Shown piece after piece: positions 108 through 10,550 of a stretch of DNA of 64,000 nt. The stretch is from Pseudomonadota bacterium (GTDB taxonomy: Bacteria > Pseudomonadota > Gammaproteobacteria > Burkholderiales > JAJZUU01). The position numbers were made by a program, and so were the translations under genes. Each line of letters begins with the position of its first letter. Position 1 is the first letter of the stretch. The notes below the pieces were generated by a model. The model ran no database searches and was not told the origin of the DNA. It saw only the letters and a list, made by a program, of their open reading frames with translations. Location: the NCBI GenBank assembly GCA_021848325.1, contig JAJZUU010000003.1, positions 1-64,000 of the forward strand. The letters are read 5' to 3'.

Positions 108-145
108 CTAGCCTGAAGCGTTCACGCCCCCCACGCGCAGGCTAG
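108..145 (-). terminator. Putative stem-loop at end of nif accessory operon
   Basis: 8-bp perfect inverted repeat CTAGCCTG...CAGGCTAG overlapping the stop codon of the SIR2-like gene; no T-tract. Confidence 0.4.
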
Positions 146-1002
146 CCCGCCACCGCGGCGACCTCCGGTCGCCGGGTGGCGATGGCCTCCCCGAATGCCT
201 GCAGCGTCATGTCGATCCGCCGGACACCCTGCTCCTCCAGGAAACGCGCCTCGTTGCGCGTCAGTTCCCCCTCCAGCACGGCCCAGTGGGTGTCCGAGGA
301 ACGCTTCATGATCTGACGCGCGAAGGCCCGCTCCAGTTGGTTGCGGAAGCGGCAGCCCAGGAACAGGAAATGGCGCCCGGCGCGCAACCGTTGCACCACC
401 TCGGGGATCGGGGTTTGGATGTCGATCTCGGTCAGCACCTCCACGTAGTCGGAATCGGATACCAGAAAGTTCCCGGCCGGCGCGATGGAACCCAGCGGCT
501 GGTACAGCAAGGTGTTCCAGCCGGCCGCTTCCGCCGCCTCGGCCGGCGAGCCGTCGCTGCGATAGCAGCGGGTCCAGGTCCCGAAGTGCTCGGCCTGGCT
601 CAGTCCCTGGATCTGCCCCCAGTCCCGCCGCCCCTGCAGCGCCGCCTGCATGGCGTCGTCATACCAGGCGCCCACGATGAGAGGCTGGGCGGCGAAGGCA
701 TGATGCAGCGGGCCGGGCTGCGCCCCGTCCTGGAACGCCCCCGTCAGCAGCGCGGTGAGGGTCTTGCGGTGCTTGAAGTTCTCGATGTACTGGGCCGCCG
801 CCGTGAGGTTCTTGCGTATCTTGTGGGGCACCGTCACTTTCGCCACCATTCTCTCCGCCAGCGCCTCCGGCGAACTGGGCACCGGGCTGCCCCCCGGCGA
901 GAGGTCCAGCACCCCCGGACCGAAGTAGGGCACCAGTTGCCCGGCGGATGCCTGGGTCATGACTTCGTCCAGCAGCATATTCTCGTCCATGACGCTCTCC
1001 AT
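142..1002 (-). CDS. SIR2-like (SIR2_2-type) protein in nif cluster, probably catalytically inactive
   Basis: GQLVPYFGPGV, LIVGAWYDDAMQAAL, QPLGSIAPAGNFLVSDSDYVEVL and FLFLGCRFRNQLERAF follow SIR2-like motif order; start set at ATG 1002 (ATGA overlap with upstream gene). Confidence 0.7.
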   Translation of the reverse strand: MESVMDENMLLDEVMTQASAGQLVPYFGPGVLDLSPGGSPVPSSPEALAERMVAKVTVPHKIRKNLTAAAQYIENFKHRKTLTALLTGAFQDGAQPGPLHHAFAAQPLIVGAWYDDAMQAALQGRRDWGQIQGLSQAEHFGTWTRCYRSDGSPAEAAEAAGWNTLLYQPLGSIAPAGNFLVSDSDYVEVLTEIDIQTPIPEVVQRLRAGRHFLFLGCRFRNQLERAFARQIMKRSSDTHWAVLEGELTRNEARFLEEQGVRRIDMTLQAFGEAIATRRPEVAAVAG

Positions 1003-1217
1003 CACTCGGTAGCCGGCGCTTTGAGGGCGGCCAGTCGTTCCTCGGGTACCCTGAACACGCCGCGACCGCCGGCCAGGGCTTGATAGCAGTCCTGGGTGCT
1101 TTGGGACAACAGATTGAACCATTCCTGGGGTTTCGCCCCGGCGGGACGCTCACCGATTTCCGAAACGCTGCCGTCCGGGGCGAAGCGCACGTGGATGACC
1201 ACCTGACTGTTTTCCAT
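1002..1217 (-). CDS. Small conserved-looking hypothetical protein (71 aa) in nif operon
   Basis: ORF fits between neighbours with ATGA overlap to downstream gene. Confidence 0.65.
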   Translation of the reverse strand: MENSQVVIHVRFAPDGSVSEIGERPAGAKPQEWFNLLSQSTQDCYQALAGGRGVFRVPEERLAALKAPATE

Positions 1218-1235
1218 GGTTTGCCTCCTTCATCG

Positions 1236-2384
1236 TTAATAGATCGCCGCACCGGCGCCCACGTTGACCGAGGCGTCCTTGGCGGTCTTGACCACGAAAC
1301 CCACTTGGTCTTCGCTCAAATGGGCATGAAACGGAAGCGCGACGGCACGGTCCGCCACCTTCTCGGCCACTGGCAGATTGCCCTTGCGCCAGCCCCGTTC
1401 CATATAGAACGCCTGCAGGTGCATGGGCTGGCAGTAGGCGGCCGCCTCCGCCTTCTCGGTGCGCAGGTCGGCCACGATGGCATCGCGGCTGCTGCGGCTG
1501 AAGCGGGTCCCCAGGTGCACCAGATACAGAAACCAGTGCACCTCGTCGGCCTCGGGCGCGACATAGGGGGGTTTGATGCCCTCGAAGGACTGGACGTGCC
1601 GCAGGTAGTCCCCTTCCACCCGCTTGCGCCGCGCCAGGATCTCCTCGATGCGCGCCAGTTGCGCCAGACCCAGGGCCGCGTTCAGGTCGCTCATGGCGGC
1701 CTGGAGCGGCGGGCTTCCGGTCGCCACCAGGGAAAACCGCTCGTCCGCGCGCCGGTTGCGGTGGTGGCGCAGTCTCGCCGCCAGTTCGGGGTCGTCCGTC
1801 ACTACCATTCCCCCCTCGCCGGCCGCCAGTGCCCCGGGCTGGGAAAAGTCGAAGATGGCGCAGTCGCCGAAGCTCCCCACCGGCCTGCCGCAGTAGCGCG
1901 AACCGATGGCCTCGGTGGAATCTTCCACCAGCAGCAGACCGTGCCGCCCGGCCAGGCTGCGCAGCGCGTCCCAGGCGGCGGGATGGCCGTTGGTGTTGCC
2001 GGCCACGATGGCCCGGGTGCGCGGCGTGATCGTGGCCTCGGCCTTGTCCGGGGCCAGGGTGCCGGCCCAGTAGTCGATGTCGGCGAACACCGGCTCGGCC
2101 CCGGCCAGGGCCACCCCATGGGCGATCTGGTGCCAGGAGAAGGACGAGACGATCACCTCGTCTCCGGGCCCGATGCCCGACGCCCGCAGGCACAGCAGCA
2201 GCCCTGCGGTGCCGCTGGCCACCGCCACCCCGTGACGGCGGCCCAGATGGGCCGCCAGGGCCGCCTCGAAAGCCTCCGCCACCGGCCCGGCGGACAGCCG
2301 CGGGGACTTGAGCACCGCCGTCACCGCGTCCAGTTCGGCTAGGCTGATGTCCGGGTCGGACAGGGCGATCCAGTCTTGGCTCAC
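1236..2384 (-). CDS. DegT/DnrJ/EryC1/StrS aminotransferase-fold protein, nif-associated
   Basis: VASGTAGLLLCLRASGIGPGDEVIVSSFSW, VEDSTEAIGSRYCGRPVGSFGD, GEGGMVVTDD; likely GTG start at 2384. Confidence 0.8.
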   Translation of the reverse strand: MSQDWIALSDPDISLAELDAVTAVLKSPRLSAGPVAEAFEAALAAHLGRRHGVAVASGTAGLLLCLRASGIGPGDEVIVSSFSWHQIAHGVALAGAEPVFADIDYWAGTLAPDKAEATITPRTRAIVAGNTNGHPAAWDALRSLAGRHGLLLVEDSTEAIGSRYCGRPVGSFGDCAIFDFSQPGALAAGEGGMVVTDDPELAARLRHHRNRRADERFSLVATGSPPLQAAMSDLNAALGLAQLARIEEILARRKRVEGDYLRHVQSFEGIKPPYVAPEADEVHWFLYLVHLGTRFSRSSRDAIVADLRTEKAEAAAYCQPMHLQAFYMERGWRKGNLPVAEKVADRAVALPFHAHLSEDQVGFVVKTAKDASVNVGAGAAIY

Positions 2385-2644
2385 CGCCGGCTCGCCACCA
2401 CCACCCCGGTGGCCGCCGACGGGTCGTCGGTGATGCGCCAGCAATGGCCGCTGCCGTCCACCAGGTAGAGGTAGCAGCCGGGGTATTCGCGGAACGGCCG
2501 CTCGCCGCTCATGTCCGCCGCGTCGCAGCGGGTCAGCGACACCCCGGGGAAGCGGATGCGCCAGCCGGCAAGGATGTCCTCCGCTTCCCCGGGGGCCCCG
2601 AGAGCGGCGTCGAAACGCCGTAAGTCGTCTGCGCTCAAGGCCAT
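2381..2644 (-). CDS. Small nif-associated protein, DUF6129-like
   Basis: ORF MALSADDLRRFDAALGAPGEAEDILAGWRIRFPGVSLTRCDAADM...; position between nifT and DegT gene. Confidence 0.55.
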   Translation of the reverse strand: MALSADDLRRFDAALGAPGEAEDILAGWRIRFPGVSLTRCDAADMSGERPFREYPGCYLYLVDGSGHCWRITDDPSAATGVVVASRR

Positions 2645-2646
2645 GG

Positions 2647-2856
2647 TCACTGGCTCACCTTGCGGGCCTCGACCGTGATCGGCAGGGGCGTATCCGCCGC
2701 CAGTTCCGGCAATTCCAGTTGCCAGCCGTTGGCCAGGGTCACCAGGCCGCCCCACATCGCCGTCTTCTCCATGGAGACGATGGGCTCCTCCAGGTCCTTT
2801 TTGGCCACGTAGGCGGACAACGTGCCTGCCCCGTTCTTGCGGATCATTACCTTCAT
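2647..2856 (-). CDS. nifT: NifT/FixU family protein
   Basis: MKVMIRKNGAGTLSAYVAKKDLEEPIVSMEKTAMWGGLVTLANGWQLELPELAADTPLPITVEARKVSQ is a full-length NifT match from memory. Confidence 0.92.
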   Translation of the reverse strand: MKVMIRKNGAGTLSAYVAKKDLEEPIVSMEKTAMWGGLVTLANGWQLELPELAADTPLPITVEARKVSQ

Positions 2857-2889
2857 TGCGCTTCTCCAAGTGTCAAACACGAATCCCGA

Positions 2890-4050
2890 TCACGCCGCGA
2901 CGGCGCCTGCAACCTTCACCACCGCGGGCAGCACCTCCAGCACCCGGTCGATGTCCGCCCTGGTGGTGTAGCGGCTGAGGGAAAAACGGATGGACGCCGC
3001 GGCCCCGGAACGGTCCAGGCCCATGGCGCTCAGCACGTGGGACGGCTCGCTGCCGCCGGCGGCGCACGCCGAACCGGCGGAGGCGTAGATGCCCGCGCGA
3101 TCCAGCTTGTCCAGGATCGCCTCCGCGTCCAGCCCGGCGAACCGGATGTTGGCGGTGTTGGCCACCCGCTCGGCCCCGCCGCCGTTGACCGTGGCACAGG
3201 GTAGCCGCGCCAATATCCCCTGCTCCAGATGGTCTCGCATTGCCTCCACCCCCGCGGCCCCCCCGTCCCCCAGCCATTGGGCCGCGAGGGCACTGGCCAC
3301 CCCGAGGCCGCCGATCGCCGGGACGTTCTCGGTGCCGCCGCGCCTGCCGCGCTCCTGATGGCCGAACAACAGCGGCGGCCACCTGAGGCCCTTGCGCACG
3401 AACAGCGCCCCAATCCCCTGGGGGCCGTGCAGCTTGTGGCCGGACAGGGACAGCAGGTCCACCGGCACCCGGGCCAGGTCGATGACCACCTTGCCCGTGG
3501 CCTGCACCGCGTCGGTGTGGAACAACGCTCCCCTGGCCCGGGCCAGCGCCGCGGCCTGCTCGATGGGAAACAGCACGCCGGTCTCGTTGTTGGCCCACAT
3601 CAGGGACACCAGGGCGGTCCCGGGGGTGACCGCCCGCTCCAGATCGGCAAGGTCCAGCCGCCCCAGGCGGTCCACCGGCAACAGGGTCACCGCCGCCCTC
3701 CCCTGGGCCTCCAGATGGCGCAGCAGAAGCAGGGTGGAGGGGTGCTCCACGGCGCTGGCGACGATGTGGCGCCGCTGCGGGTCGAGGCGCACGGCCCCGA
3801 GCATGGCGGCATGGTTTGCCTCGGTGGCGCCGCCGGTGAACACGATCTCCGCCGGCTGCGCCCCCAGCAGCCGCGCCACTTGCCCGCGCGCCTCCAGCAC
3901 CCGCTGTTTGGCCCGCTGGCCGCGGCCGTGCTTGCTGGACGGGTTGCCCCAGTCCCCCTGCAGGCAGGCCGCCATGGCCGCCACGCACTCCGGGGCCGGC
4001 CGGGTGGTGGCGTTGTTGTCCAGGTAGACTTGCTGCTCGGGGACGTTCAT
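2890..4050 (-). CDS. nifS: Cysteine desulfurase NifS
   Basis: VYLDNNATTRPAPE, SLSGHKLHGPQGIGALFVRKG (PLP Lys), SAGSACAAGGSEPSHVL (active Cys); start ATG 4050. Confidence 0.93.
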   Translation of the reverse strand: MNVPEQQVYLDNNATTRPAPECVAAMAACLQGDWGNPSSKHGRGQRAKQRVLEARGQVARLLGAQPAEIVFTGGATEANHAAMLGAVRLDPQRRHIVASAVEHPSTLLLLRHLEAQGRAAVTLLPVDRLGRLDLADLERAVTPGTALVSLMWANNETGVLFPIEQAAALARARGALFHTDAVQATGKVVIDLARVPVDLLSLSGHKLHGPQGIGALFVRKGLRWPPLLFGHQERGRRGGTENVPAIGGLGVASALAAQWLGDGGAAGVEAMRDHLEQGILARLPCATVNGGGAERVANTANIRFAGLDAEAILDKLDRAGIYASAGSACAAGGSEPSHVLSAMGLDRSGAAASIRFSLSRYTTRADIDRVLEVLPAVVKVAGAVAA

Positions 4051-4394
4051 TGCCAGAATATCCGTTCCGGGTCCTGATTGAGTTGTTGCACCGACTCCGC
4101 CAGGGTGGCGAATTCGCCGCAGGCCAGCCACTGGTCGTTGCGGTGATCCTTGCGGTACAGGCGCCACAGGCGCCGGCGCAGGTCGTACTCCATGCGGGCG
4201 ATATCGATCATGCCGCCGGAGCGGTCGACATTGCGCGAACAACAGGGGCTGCGGACCCGGTAGCCGCCGGCCACGGCGCTCACCTCCGGCGCCACGTAGC
4301 GGTAGCGCTTGCGCTGCGCCAGCATGCGCTCGATGCGCTTGCGGTCCACGTCGTTGGGATGAGGGCCGATCGCCGTTGCGCTGTAGCTGCCCAT
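4047..4394 (-). CDS. Nif-cluster hypothetical protein (C-terminus resembles DUF3024)
   Basis: 115 aa ORF overlapping nifS start; C-terminal WRLYRKDHRNDQWLACGEFATLAESVQQLNQDPERIFW. Confidence 0.55.
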   Translation of the reverse strand: MGSYSATAIGPHPNDVDRKRIERMLAQRKRYRYVAPEVSAVAGGYRVRSPCCSRNVDRSGGMIDIARMEYDLRRRLWRLYRKDHRNDQWLACGEFATLAESVQQLNQDPERIFWQ

Positions 4395-4961: not shown

Positions 4962-5747
4962 TCAAACAGGCAGACCGCATTCGTTGCCGGCCGCCGGCCC
5001 TGCGGCGGCCTCGATGCGCTGCCTGGCCAACTCCCGCACCGCCGGATCGGCGTCGCCGGACAGGCGCTCCAGGTATTCCTGCCCGATGCGGCTGGCCACC
5101 TCGTAGCGCACCCGCCAGTCCGGGTCGCCCAGCAACAGGGGCAACTGCCCGGCCGCCATGCGGTTTGCCACCTCCAGGCGCACCGCGGGGTCCGGGTCCG
5201 CCATCAGCACCGACAGCCATTCCGCCGGCAGGCGCCGGGCCACGGTGGCGCGTACCTCGGAGTCCGGGTCGTGCACCATCAGGATCAATTTCCGGGGCGG
5301 CAGGCGCCGGGCCACGATCTGCCGCACGTAATAATCGGGATCGTGGATCAGAGTGCCCAGGTGTCGCTCCTCCAGCCGCGCCGCCACCCGGATCCGCACC
5401 TCCCGGTGGGGATCGTTGCGCAGCGCCATCAGGTACTTGGCGGGCAGCCGCCGGGCCGCGCTCCAGCGCACCGTCTCGTCCGGGTCCTTGAGCAACTGGG
5501 GCAGGCAAAACACCTCCACATGATTTGCCGCGACCGCCCGCACCTCGAAGTAGGGATGCGCCAGATAGTCCCTGGCCAGGCCGGGATTCTGGGCAAAAAA
5601 TCGGTCGATGCGCTTGGCGTAGCGGTCGTGCACGCAGGCATGGCCCAGGCTGCACCCCTCGCCCTTGGCCAGCGCCAGGTGCGGGCATGTCTCGCAGCGG
5701 AGCTGCGCCCCCTGCCAGTCCCTGGTCTCGCCAAGATCAGTCGTCAT
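4962..5747 (-). CDS. 4Fe4S leucine-rich-repeat-variant (LRV) protein
   Basis: N-terminal CETCPHLALAKGEGCSLGHAC Cys cluster followed by many ~24-aa repeats (DPDxxVRxxVAxRLPxxxL); resembles the Azotobacter nif-region LRV protein. Confidence 0.85.
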   Translation of the reverse strand: MTTDLGETRDWQGAQLRCETCPHLALAKGEGCSLGHACVHDRYAKRIDRFFAQNPGLARDYLAHPYFEVRAVAANHVEVFCLPQLLKDPDETVRWSAARRLPAKYLMALRNDPHREVRIRVAARLEERHLGTLIHDPDYYVRQIVARRLPPRKLILMVHDPDSEVRATVARRLPAEWLSVLMADPDPAVRLEVANRMAAGQLPLLLGDPDWRVRYEVASRIGQEYLERLSGDADPAVRELARQRIEAAAGPAAGNECGLPV

Positions 5748-6267
5748 CGTCCTGCCCCATGCGTTCAAGCACCCCCAGCAGCACCCTTCCCCCCAGTTTG
5801 TCGGAGGGGTCCAGTTCCAGCAGTTTGGCGATGGCGGCACGCCCCTTGTCCAGGTGACCCAGGCGCATCTGCAGGTAGCCGTAGGCCTTCAGGGTGAACA
5901 GGTAGAAACGGGGCAGGATGGCCTCGTACCTCCCGAAATCCGCATCCCCCTGTTGCACCGTGCGCCAATCCTGCGCCAGGCCGGCGTCCCGGGCGGCCTT
6001 CTCCAGGCATCGCCGGGACACCCGCAGCGCCTCTTCCAGCCTGCCCTTGTAGAAATAGAACCGGTAGAGCCCGATGTAGGCGGCGGCATGCCGCGGCGCC
6101 AGGGCCAGGGCCCGGTGCAGGTGTTCCTCCGCCGCGGCATCGTCATGGTAGGACTGGCCGGCCAGGCGCAGGTGGCGCTCGGCCTCCGGCGGCAGGCCCT
6201 GGCCCAGACACTCCCGCTCCAACAGAGAGATGTCCGCGCCGCCCCTGATGTCGCCGCCGGGCGCCAT
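5737..6267 (-). CDS. TPR-type nif-associated protein
   Basis: Repeats DDAAAEEHLHRALALAPRHAAAYIGLYRFYFYKGRLEEAL... and LGHLDKGRAAIAKLLELDPSD. Confidence 0.65.
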   Translation of the reverse strand: MAPGGDIRGGADISLLERECLGQGLPPEAERHLRLAGQSYHDDAAAEEHLHRALALAPRHAAAYIGLYRFYFYKGRLEEALRVSRRCLEKAARDAGLAQDWRTVQQGDADFGRYEAILPRFYLFTLKAYGYLQMRLGHLDKGRAAIAKLLELDPSDKLGGRVLLGVLERMGQDDDD

Positions 6268-6274
6268 CGATCCC

Positions 6275-6646
6275 TCAATGCTTGCGCGGGATGCTGGAGA
6301 CGGTGATGGTGGCCACCCCCGGCGCACTGCTGCTGCCGCAACTGCCGCAGGCGGCCGCGTTCGGATTGATAAAGGTCAGGCCGCTGCTCATGGGCGAGTC
6401 GCTGAAATCGATGGTGACGCCGTCCAGCAGAAGACGGCTCTCCGCCGGCAGGAACAGCTTGAGCCCGTTGCTGACGACGACGCTGTCGCCGGACCGGGGG
6501 GCGGCCTCCACCGTGAACTCCGAGGCCAACCCGGAACATCCGCCGGCGCTGACCACCAGGCGGAAGCCGGCATTCTCGTTCCCGCCGCCGAAGCGGACCA
6601 TGCGGCGCATGAATTTTTCGGCACCGGGTGTGATCGTCAGGTTCAT
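6275..6646 (-). CDS. HesB/IscA-type Fe-S carrier (nif-specific IscA)
   Basis: FRLVVSAGGCSGLASEFTVE and C-terminal NPNAAACGSCGSS Cys motifs. Confidence 0.88.
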   Translation of the reverse strand: MNLTITPGAEKFMRRMVRFGGGNENAGFRLVVSAGGCSGLASEFTVEAAPRSGDSVVVSNGLKLFLPAESRLLLDGVTIDFSDSPMSSGLTFINPNAAACGSCGSSSAPGVATITVSSIPRKH

Positions 6647-6928: not shown

Positions 6929-8488
6929 TCAGGCGGCGATGTAGGCCCCCTGGCGGATGTCCGCGTCGCCCTTGTCGATGTGGGCGATCTCGCCGCGCCT
7001 GACCTTCTCCACGTATTCCTTGAAGTAGGCAATGACGGACTGCTCGATGAACTCGTGGGCATAGCCGTCCACCGGGTCGATCCCGGCGGCCTTGAGGCTG
7101 TCTTTGGGACAGGCGCCGATCTTGGCCACGAACACCGCCACGCAGTCGTTGATGGCGCGGATTACCGTGTCCAGGGTGTCTTCCTCGCCGTAGCCGCCCT
7201 GGCAGTAATGGTCCACCCGGCGGTGACCGATGAACTTGGTGCCGGCGGCGCTCACCTCGTAGATCTGGAATTCGCCGGCGTGGCCGAAGTGCTCGTTGAT
7301 ACGCCCGCCGCCCTTGGTGGCCACCGCGGCCAGGATCTTGATGTCGCCGAAATCGGCTCCCGGTTGCGCCAGTTCCGCCTCCCTGGCCGCCACCTTTTCC
7401 TGCCGGTCCTGCTCCACCCGCTCCTGGTAGGCCTTCCTGGCGGCAGCGTCGTAGCTGACCTCCATGGCCATCACCTTCTCGGTGCTGAACTCGGCGCTGC
7501 GGTCCTCTCCCAGCAGCCCCACCGCATCGGCGCGGCACTGGCGGCAATGGCGCATCATGTTCATCTCGCCCTCGCACTGGTCCTGCAGCGCCTTCAGTTC
7601 CTGGGCGGTGGGTCCGCGCTGGCCGTTGAGGCCGAACACGGTGCCGTGCTCCGGGGCCGAGATCAGCGGCATGATGTTGTGCAGAAACGCCCCCCGCGAC
7701 TTGACCGCCCGGTTCACCTCCACCAGGTGCCGGTCGTTGACGCCGGGGATCATCACCGAATTGACCTTGCACAGGATGCCGGCGGCGGTAAGCATCTCCA
7801 GCCCTTGCAGTTGACGCTCGGACAATATGCGGGCCGCCTCCCTGCCGGTATAGCGCTTGTGCCGGTAGAAGATCCACGGGTAGATGTGCTGCCCCACCTC
7901 CGGGTCCACCACGTTGATGGTGATGGTGACATGGTCCACGTTGAAGCGCTTGATGGTTTCCACATGGTCCGGCAGGGCCAGGCCGTTGGTGGACAGGCAC
8001 AGCTTGATATCGGGGGCCTCCCGGGCCACCAGCTCGAAGGTCCGGAAGGTCTTTTCCGGATTGGCCAGGGGATCCCCCGGGCCGGCGATGCCCAGCACCG
8101 TCATCTGCGGGATGGCGGAGGCCACCGCCACCACCTTCCTGGCCGCCTGTTCCGGGGTCAGCTTCTCACTCACCACCCCCGGCCGGCTCTCGTTGGCGCA
8201 GTCGTATTTGCGGTTGCAGTAGTTGCACTGGATGTTGCAGGCCGGCGCCACCGCCACGTGCATGCGCGCATAGTGGTGGTGCGCCTCTTCGCTGTAGCAG
8301 GGATGGTTCTTCACCTTCTCCCATACCTCCGGGGGCAGGTCCCCCTGTCCGGCCGCCGAGCCGCAACTGGCCTTGCCGGCGCCACCCGAACTGCCGCAGC
8401 CCTTGTGTTCCGCGATTTTCTGCATCAGCGCGTCCAGAGGCTGAATCTCGTGGACCGTTCCGTTGTTCGCCGCCGCCTGGTCTTGCAT
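6929..8488 (-). CDS. nifB: FeMo cofactor biosynthesis radical SAM protein NifB with C-terminal NifX/NafY-like domain
   Basis: [14 protein letters not shown] radical SAM motif; [25 protein letters not shown]-terminal [20 protein letters not shown]; start ATG 8488. Confidence 0.96.
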
Positions 8489-8593: not shown

Positions 8594-8609
8594 AGCAATG
8601 ACCGTGCCA
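8594..8609 (-). promoter_or_regulatory. Sigma54 (-24/-12) promoter of nifB operon
   Basis: Minus strand TGGCAC-GGTCA-TTGCT, exact match to TGGCAC-N5-TTGCW. Confidence 0.9.
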
Positions 8610-8667: not shown

Positions 8668-8683
8668 TGTCGAAATGCCTACA
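8668..8683 (-). promoter_or_regulatory. NifA upstream activator sequence 1
   Basis: TGT-CGAAATGCCT-ACA, exact TGT-N10-ACA. Confidence 0.8.
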
Positions 8684-8707
8684 AAAGACCGTCCGCTGTA
8701 GTGAATT

Positions 8708-8723
8708 TGTGGCAAACGCGACA
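8708..8723 (-). promoter_or_regulatory. NifA upstream activator sequence 2
   Basis: TGT-GGCAAACGCG-ACA, exact TGT-N10-ACA. Confidence 0.8.
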
Positions 8724-10534: not shown

Positions 10535-10550
10535 AGCAAGCAACGTGCCA
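10535..10550 (-). promoter_or_regulatory. Sigma54 (-24/-12) promoter of nifA
   Basis: Minus strand TGGCAC-GTTGC-TTGCT, exact consensus, 34 bp upstream of nifA ATG. Confidence 0.85.

Follow-up and report, generated by a model that had tools for sequence, protein, structure and literature searches.

A DegT-family protein of a nifB operon lacks the PLP-binding lysine and is probably a dedicated nitrogen-fixation pseudoenzyme

What does a protein with the fold of a DegT/DnrJ/EryC1/StrS sugar aminotransferase do in a nitrogen-fixation operon if it lacks the lysine on which the PLP internal aldimine is formed? The question is raised by a gene close to one end of the 64,000-nucleotide stretch of DNA analysed here (‘the window’), for which a preliminary description had suggested a nif-linked pseudoenzyme or a PLP-independent role. 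The gene and the features of its product that bear on this are as follows:

1236–2384, minus strand: GTG-initiated gene of a nif-linked, 382-aa DegT-fold protein that lacks the PLP lysine
1833–1835, minus strand: codon of Gly184, at the PLP aldimine lysine position of sugar aminotransferases
1848–1850, minus strand: codon of Asp179, replacing the PLP phosphate-binding Ser
1239–1265, minus strand: family-specific C-terminal tail NVGAGAAIY (residues 374–382)

By profile and by fold, the protein belongs to the DegT/DnrJ/EryC1/StrS aminotransferases. The Pfam match (PF01041, DegT_DnrJ_EryC1, 305 bits) spans its full length, and the AlphaFold2 monomer model, computed from an input of 58 sequences, is confident (pLDDT 91, pTM 0.91). 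The closest solved folds (Foldseek E 1e-34) are those of GDP-perosamine synthase from C. crescentus (3BN1/3DR7; K186A mutant 3DR4) and ArnB (1MDO, 8SNG, 4OCA), with which it shares the fold over its whole length (TM-score 0.85–0.87, 32–35% identity).

Alignment with nif-cluster relatives and solved references, which the preliminary description had proposed as a check on its claim of a missing PLP lysine with Gly in its place, bore that claim out. The protein reads ...VEDSTEAIGS...GDCAIFDFSQPGALAAGEGGMVV..., and in HMMER alignments Gly184 takes the place of the catalytic lysine both in GDP-perosamine synthase (‘FSFFGNKIITTGEGG’, 3BN1/3DR7) and in ArnB (‘FSFHAIKNMTCAEGG’); in the deposited K186A mutant, 3DR4, the substituted Ala falls exactly in the Gly184 column. 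Position 184 was then compared in 85 relatives from alpha-, beta- and gammaproteobacteria (the best 80 of 247 loci matched in a genome scan, supplemented by members found on plasmids and in whole genomes). Lys was present in 0/85, against 37/37 ordinary DegT proteins, a control set picked by best Pfam score in which the His-bearing 3-dehydratase branch is therefore under-represented. These controls included paralogues from the window’s genome, from other carriers and from other genomes, ordinary Lys-bearing DegT paralogues being present both in the window’s genome and in other carriers. Such a difference indicates that the loss is family-wide, and neither chance nor error.

The residue found instead is variable: Ser in 40 of the 85 relatives, Gly in 33, Leu in 5, Phe in 4, and a few others including Ala. 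The 3-dehydratase branch (ColD/E1) carries His at the aldimine lysine position; none of the 85 relatives does, which rules out identity as a His-type 3-dehydratase. Nor was a replacement lysine found. As the preliminary description had said of the surroundings, the window’s protein has no lysine between K114 and K254, and the nearly invariant K114, K271, K342 and K369 all align outside the cofactor-binding segments of solved homologues (a placement by alignment, not by coordinates), leaving no candidate for another lysine at PLP C4′, which would have counted against the claim.

The phosphate-binding side of the pocket is also broken, since the phosphate-anchoring Ser five residues before the lysine position is Asp179 in 85/85 sampled relatives (Ser in 37/37 controls). 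Furthermore, the His of ‘HLYG’ is Asn130 in 85/85, compared with His in 31/37 ordinary DegT proteins. Other parts of the cofactor site are retained in common with GDP-perosamine synthase and ArnB, in keeping with the earlier observation of intact SGTA, E-D and GEGG segments: the pyridine-nitrogen aspartate D155 is kept in 85/85 sampled relatives, the SGT loop is kept, and the GEGG turn is mostly kept. Ser, Thr and Asp contacts that hold PLP have been described for Spr1654 (PMC5936713). Within the old cofactor segments D155, E158, D179 and N130 are invariant, and H134, W138, Q182 and P183 nearly so. Glu158 was considered as a unique mark of the family and dropped; its conservation is not unusual by itself, because perosamine synthases have Glu there too.

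A feature that does set the family apart lies at the C-terminus, where the consensus N-[VIL]-G-A-G-[ASTV]-A-I-Y, with an optional final Leu, was found in 84/84 complete sampled members and was absent from the ordinary DegT proteins compared. Thus, relative to GDP-perosamine synthase and ArnB, the nif protein lacks the aldimine lysine, has Asp for the phosphate Ser and Asn for the conserved His, and has an additional tail and a nif operon setting.

Phylogenetically, the nif DegT proteins fall into one clade, supported at 100/100, whose stem is long at 1.74 changes per column, and the tree implies a single change of state for the loss of lysine. Values of dN/dS in ten close pairs were 0.03–0.16, and the protein is therefore under purifying selection. 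Median identity to the window copy was 66%, versus 80% for NifB and 71% for NifT, with 45–61% for the other operon neighbours measured. A divergent copy (51% identity, FDFSTPQAITMGDGA) occurs in a compact nif cluster of a 2.1 Mb genome (L122, G013:C3:1-11000), which keeps nifB, HesB-like and NifS-like genes; a DUF6129 gene was not detected beside this copy.

The operon runs in the order nifB, ferredoxin, HesB-like, TPR, LRV, (NifZ), DUF3024, NifS-like, nifT, DUF6129, DegT, small ORF, SIR2_2, the ferredoxin and NifZ positions having been set by comparison with an annotated plasmid locus. Neighbours in the window are:

142–990, minus strand: SIR2_2-domain protein, downstream of DegT
1003–1221, minus strand: small conserved ORF, about 72 aa
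2381–2644, minus strand: DUF6129-like protein, 87 aa, directly upstream, 4-base overlap
2644–2859, minus strand: nifT, matching annotated NifT
2887–4047, minus strand: NifS-like class V aminotransferase/cysteine desulfurase, PLP lysine present (SGHK)
4047–4394, minus strand: DUF3024 protein
4962–5747, minus strand: LRV 4Fe-4S leucine-rich-repeat-variant protein
5737–6237, minus strand: TPR protein
6275–6646, minus strand: HesB/IscA-like Fe-S assembly protein
6929–8488, minus strand: nifB

The setting is conserved. Among the best 80 of 247 loci, the DUF6129 gene, whose stop is overlapped by the 5′ end of the DegT gene by 4 bases (GTGA), adjoins the latter in 80/80; a SIR2_2 gene lies close by in 74/80, the small ORF is present in 54/80, and nifB, HesB, TPR and LRV genes are found in most. 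In many alphaproteobacteria the SIR2_2 gene lies beyond nifB, on the opposite side, and the nif cluster of Zymomonas mobilis also contains a SIR2-like gene, ZMO1821 (PMC8594446). On the Methylococcus sp. EFPC2 plasmid a 2Fe-2S ferredoxin gene follows DegT (L087:16164-16496); it is missing at window positions 1222–1235, where the small ORF comes directly next.

DUF6129 genes also occur near nifH in nif clusters without a DegT gene (G713, G735, G421, G369), and none was detected beside the divergent G013 copy, which weakens the case for the DUF6129-like protein as an exclusive partner. Its model is confident (pLDDT 89), and comparison with solved folds gave no match (best E 1.0), so that structure offers no hint of mechanism. 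Conserved Cys40, Asp44, His67 and Cys68 in this protein may form a metal site.

Sequence elements expected of nif regulation lie upstream of nifB:

8595–8609, minus strand: perfect sigma-54 −24/−12 element, TGGCACGGTCATTGC
8668–8723, no strand assigned: two NifA upstream activator boxes TGT-N10-ACA (8668–8683 and 8708–8723)

As searched, sigma-54 and NifA motifs are no commoner than chance across the whole window, and the putative promoter assignment consequently depends on their joint placement upstream of nifB. A second perfect sigma-54 consensus site lies upstream of nifA (10536–10550, minus strand).

Linkage to nitrogenase extends beyond the operon. On another contig, the window’s genome carries nifH together with four nifDKEN-type genes. 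Among 369 genomes of the class, 31 of which passed the nifH family cut-off, nifH was present in 8/8 DegT carriers (hypergeometric P 1e-9, shared ancestry ignored); among 399 genomes of the phylum, 38 of which passed, it was present in 6/6 nif-clade carriers (P 5e-7, shared ancestry likewise ignored). A seventh, weaker match in the phylum comes from G700, which has no nifH; it is a perosamine synthetase of the ordinary kind, with the lysine in place. In the sampled genomes the protein is therefore encoded in nif clusters and confined to nifH-bearing genomes. About three quarters of the sampled nifH-bearing genomes have no nif DegT gene, however, and it is thus not a universal nitrogenase factor.

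Taken with purifying selection, strict nif linkage and co-occurrence with nifH, the family-wide loss of lysine without gain of His and the loss of the phosphate Ser uphold the idea of a nif-linked pseudoenzyme or PLP-independent role. The facts support a pseudoenzyme unable to form the internal aldimine; the lost residues and the operon further suggest that it does not bind PLP, is non-catalytic and takes part in nitrogenase maturation. Because lysine has been lost across the family while fixed features of its own were gained, the protein is probably a conserved non-enzymatic nitrogenase helper. The reading judged best, and held to be somewhat better than an even bet, is a dedicated nif pseudoenzyme derived from a perosamine-synthase/ArnB-type aminotransferase, which most likely serves nitrogenase maturation as a dimeric, non-catalytic scaffold or assembly factor, the scaffold role being proposed from operon membership.

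On this reading, a perosamine-synthase/ArnB-type sugar aminotransferase would have been recruited into the nifB operon, would have lost the lysine and phosphate anchor needed for PLP, and would then have become fixed in a new role, with the former cofactor cavity remodelled around the invariant and nearly invariant residues given above. The working form would be a dimer. Confidence in the tail is low in the monomer model (about 55–69), as might be seen if it packed against a second chain; the tail probably docks into a cavity of the second subunit or a partner, for example the DUF6129 protein. A bolder version, which we regard as possible and rather doubtful, is that the PLP cavity, once emptied, was turned into a site that now takes up the tail NVGAGAAIY or a metal or cofactor intermediate. 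The protein, acting alongside the DUF6129 protein, would then be a nitrogenase maturation factor of a new kind, built on an aminotransferase fold.

The main rival to a non-catalytic scaffold is a repurposed pocket with new chemistry, unlikely on present evidence yet the strongest of the alternatives: a true enzyme whose D155, E158, D179, N130 and H134 would bind a metal or small ligand and catalyse, independently of PLP, a step in cofactor or Fe-S maturation. In its favour are the acidic and polar residues that stay invariant in the former cofactor segments, together with strong purifying selection, and a merely structural scaffold would not require so tight a conservation of the cavity; against this, no metal-binding motif was recognised, and the residue positions are alignment-based.

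Less probable again is a PLP- or PMP-dependent enzyme that dispenses with the internal aldimine and uses another residue as base, in the manner of the ColD/E1 3-dehydratases with their His. Lys-less dehydratases do exist in the DegT superfamily (3BB8, 2GMS and 3GR9 were among the sequence matches), and ColD, or CDP-6-deoxy-glucose 3-dehydratase (E1), resembles the nif protein in having a DegT fold without the aldimine lysine. With D155, the SGT loop and the GEGG turn retained, the site could yet accept a PLP- or PMP-like ligand non-covalently, and E158 is shared with perosamine synthases. ColD/E1, however, has His and binds PMP, whereas the nif family has a variable small or hydrophobic residue at position 184 (Ser, Gly, Leu, Phe, Ala) and has lost the phosphate site, the Asp found there in every member being expected to repel phosphate. 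Moreover, its closest relatives are not ColD-type dehydratases, and a non-covalent PLP/PMP role is accordingly considered unlikely.

Improbable, too, is a regulatory pseudoenzyme that would pair with the NifS-like desulfurase of the same operon as the non-catalytic half of a fold-type I couple. The two proteins belong to the same fold-type I PLP superfamily, the NifS-like gene stands two to three genes upstream of DegT in the gamma/betaproteobacterial arrangement, and in the compact G013 cluster the two genes adjoin. Nonetheless, the NifS-like protein keeps its PLP lysine and is of another subfamily, whose desulfurases act as homodimers, and a NifS gene was present at only 41/80 loci (best 80 of 247), not being near in many alphaproteobacteria. 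Finally, a decaying gene or a sequencing or assembly error at 1830–1850, a natural first suspicion where one codon could be wrong, can be dismissed, as the relatives, drawn from independent genomes, all show the same Lys-less motif, the reading frame is uninterrupted and dN/dS is well below 1.

The gene itself has been noted before. In photosynthetic bradyrhizobia, BRADO5411 and its orthologues are listed in the nif region as ‘putative aminotransferase, DegT/DnrJ/EryC1/StrS family’ (PMC3899966); BRADO5411 is equated with the window’s gene on the strength of its annotation and its neighbours (2Fe-2S ferredoxin, NifZ domain, LRV, TPR, SufA-like), not by sequence. Several genes of its cluster are reported to form an operon that every nod-independent strain shares with A. 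caulinodans, that is absent from B. japonicum and that is up-regulated in A. caulinodans bacteroids (PMC3899966). That publication gives BRADO5411 as an annotation only, with no mention of lysine loss. The passages found in an Azoarcus BH72 Tn-Seq study (PMC9769520) and in a Zymomonas nif proteome (PMC8594446) contain no statement on the nif DegT gene, and no paper on the lost lysine or on a nif DegT pseudoenzyme was found in the open-access literature. Annotation as a DegT aminotransferase is therefore known, while recognition of the lysine loss appears, within that literature, to be new.

Since annotation pipelines label the gene an aminotransferase, hunts for its sugar or amino substrate would be misdirected. 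What the family offers instead is a clean, conserved candidate pseudoenzyme among the uncharacterised nif accessory genes, tied to a small DUF6129 protein and to a SIR2-like one, and whether the DegT, DUF6129 and SIR2-like genes matter for nitrogenase bears on the gene set to be used in transferring nitrogen fixation.
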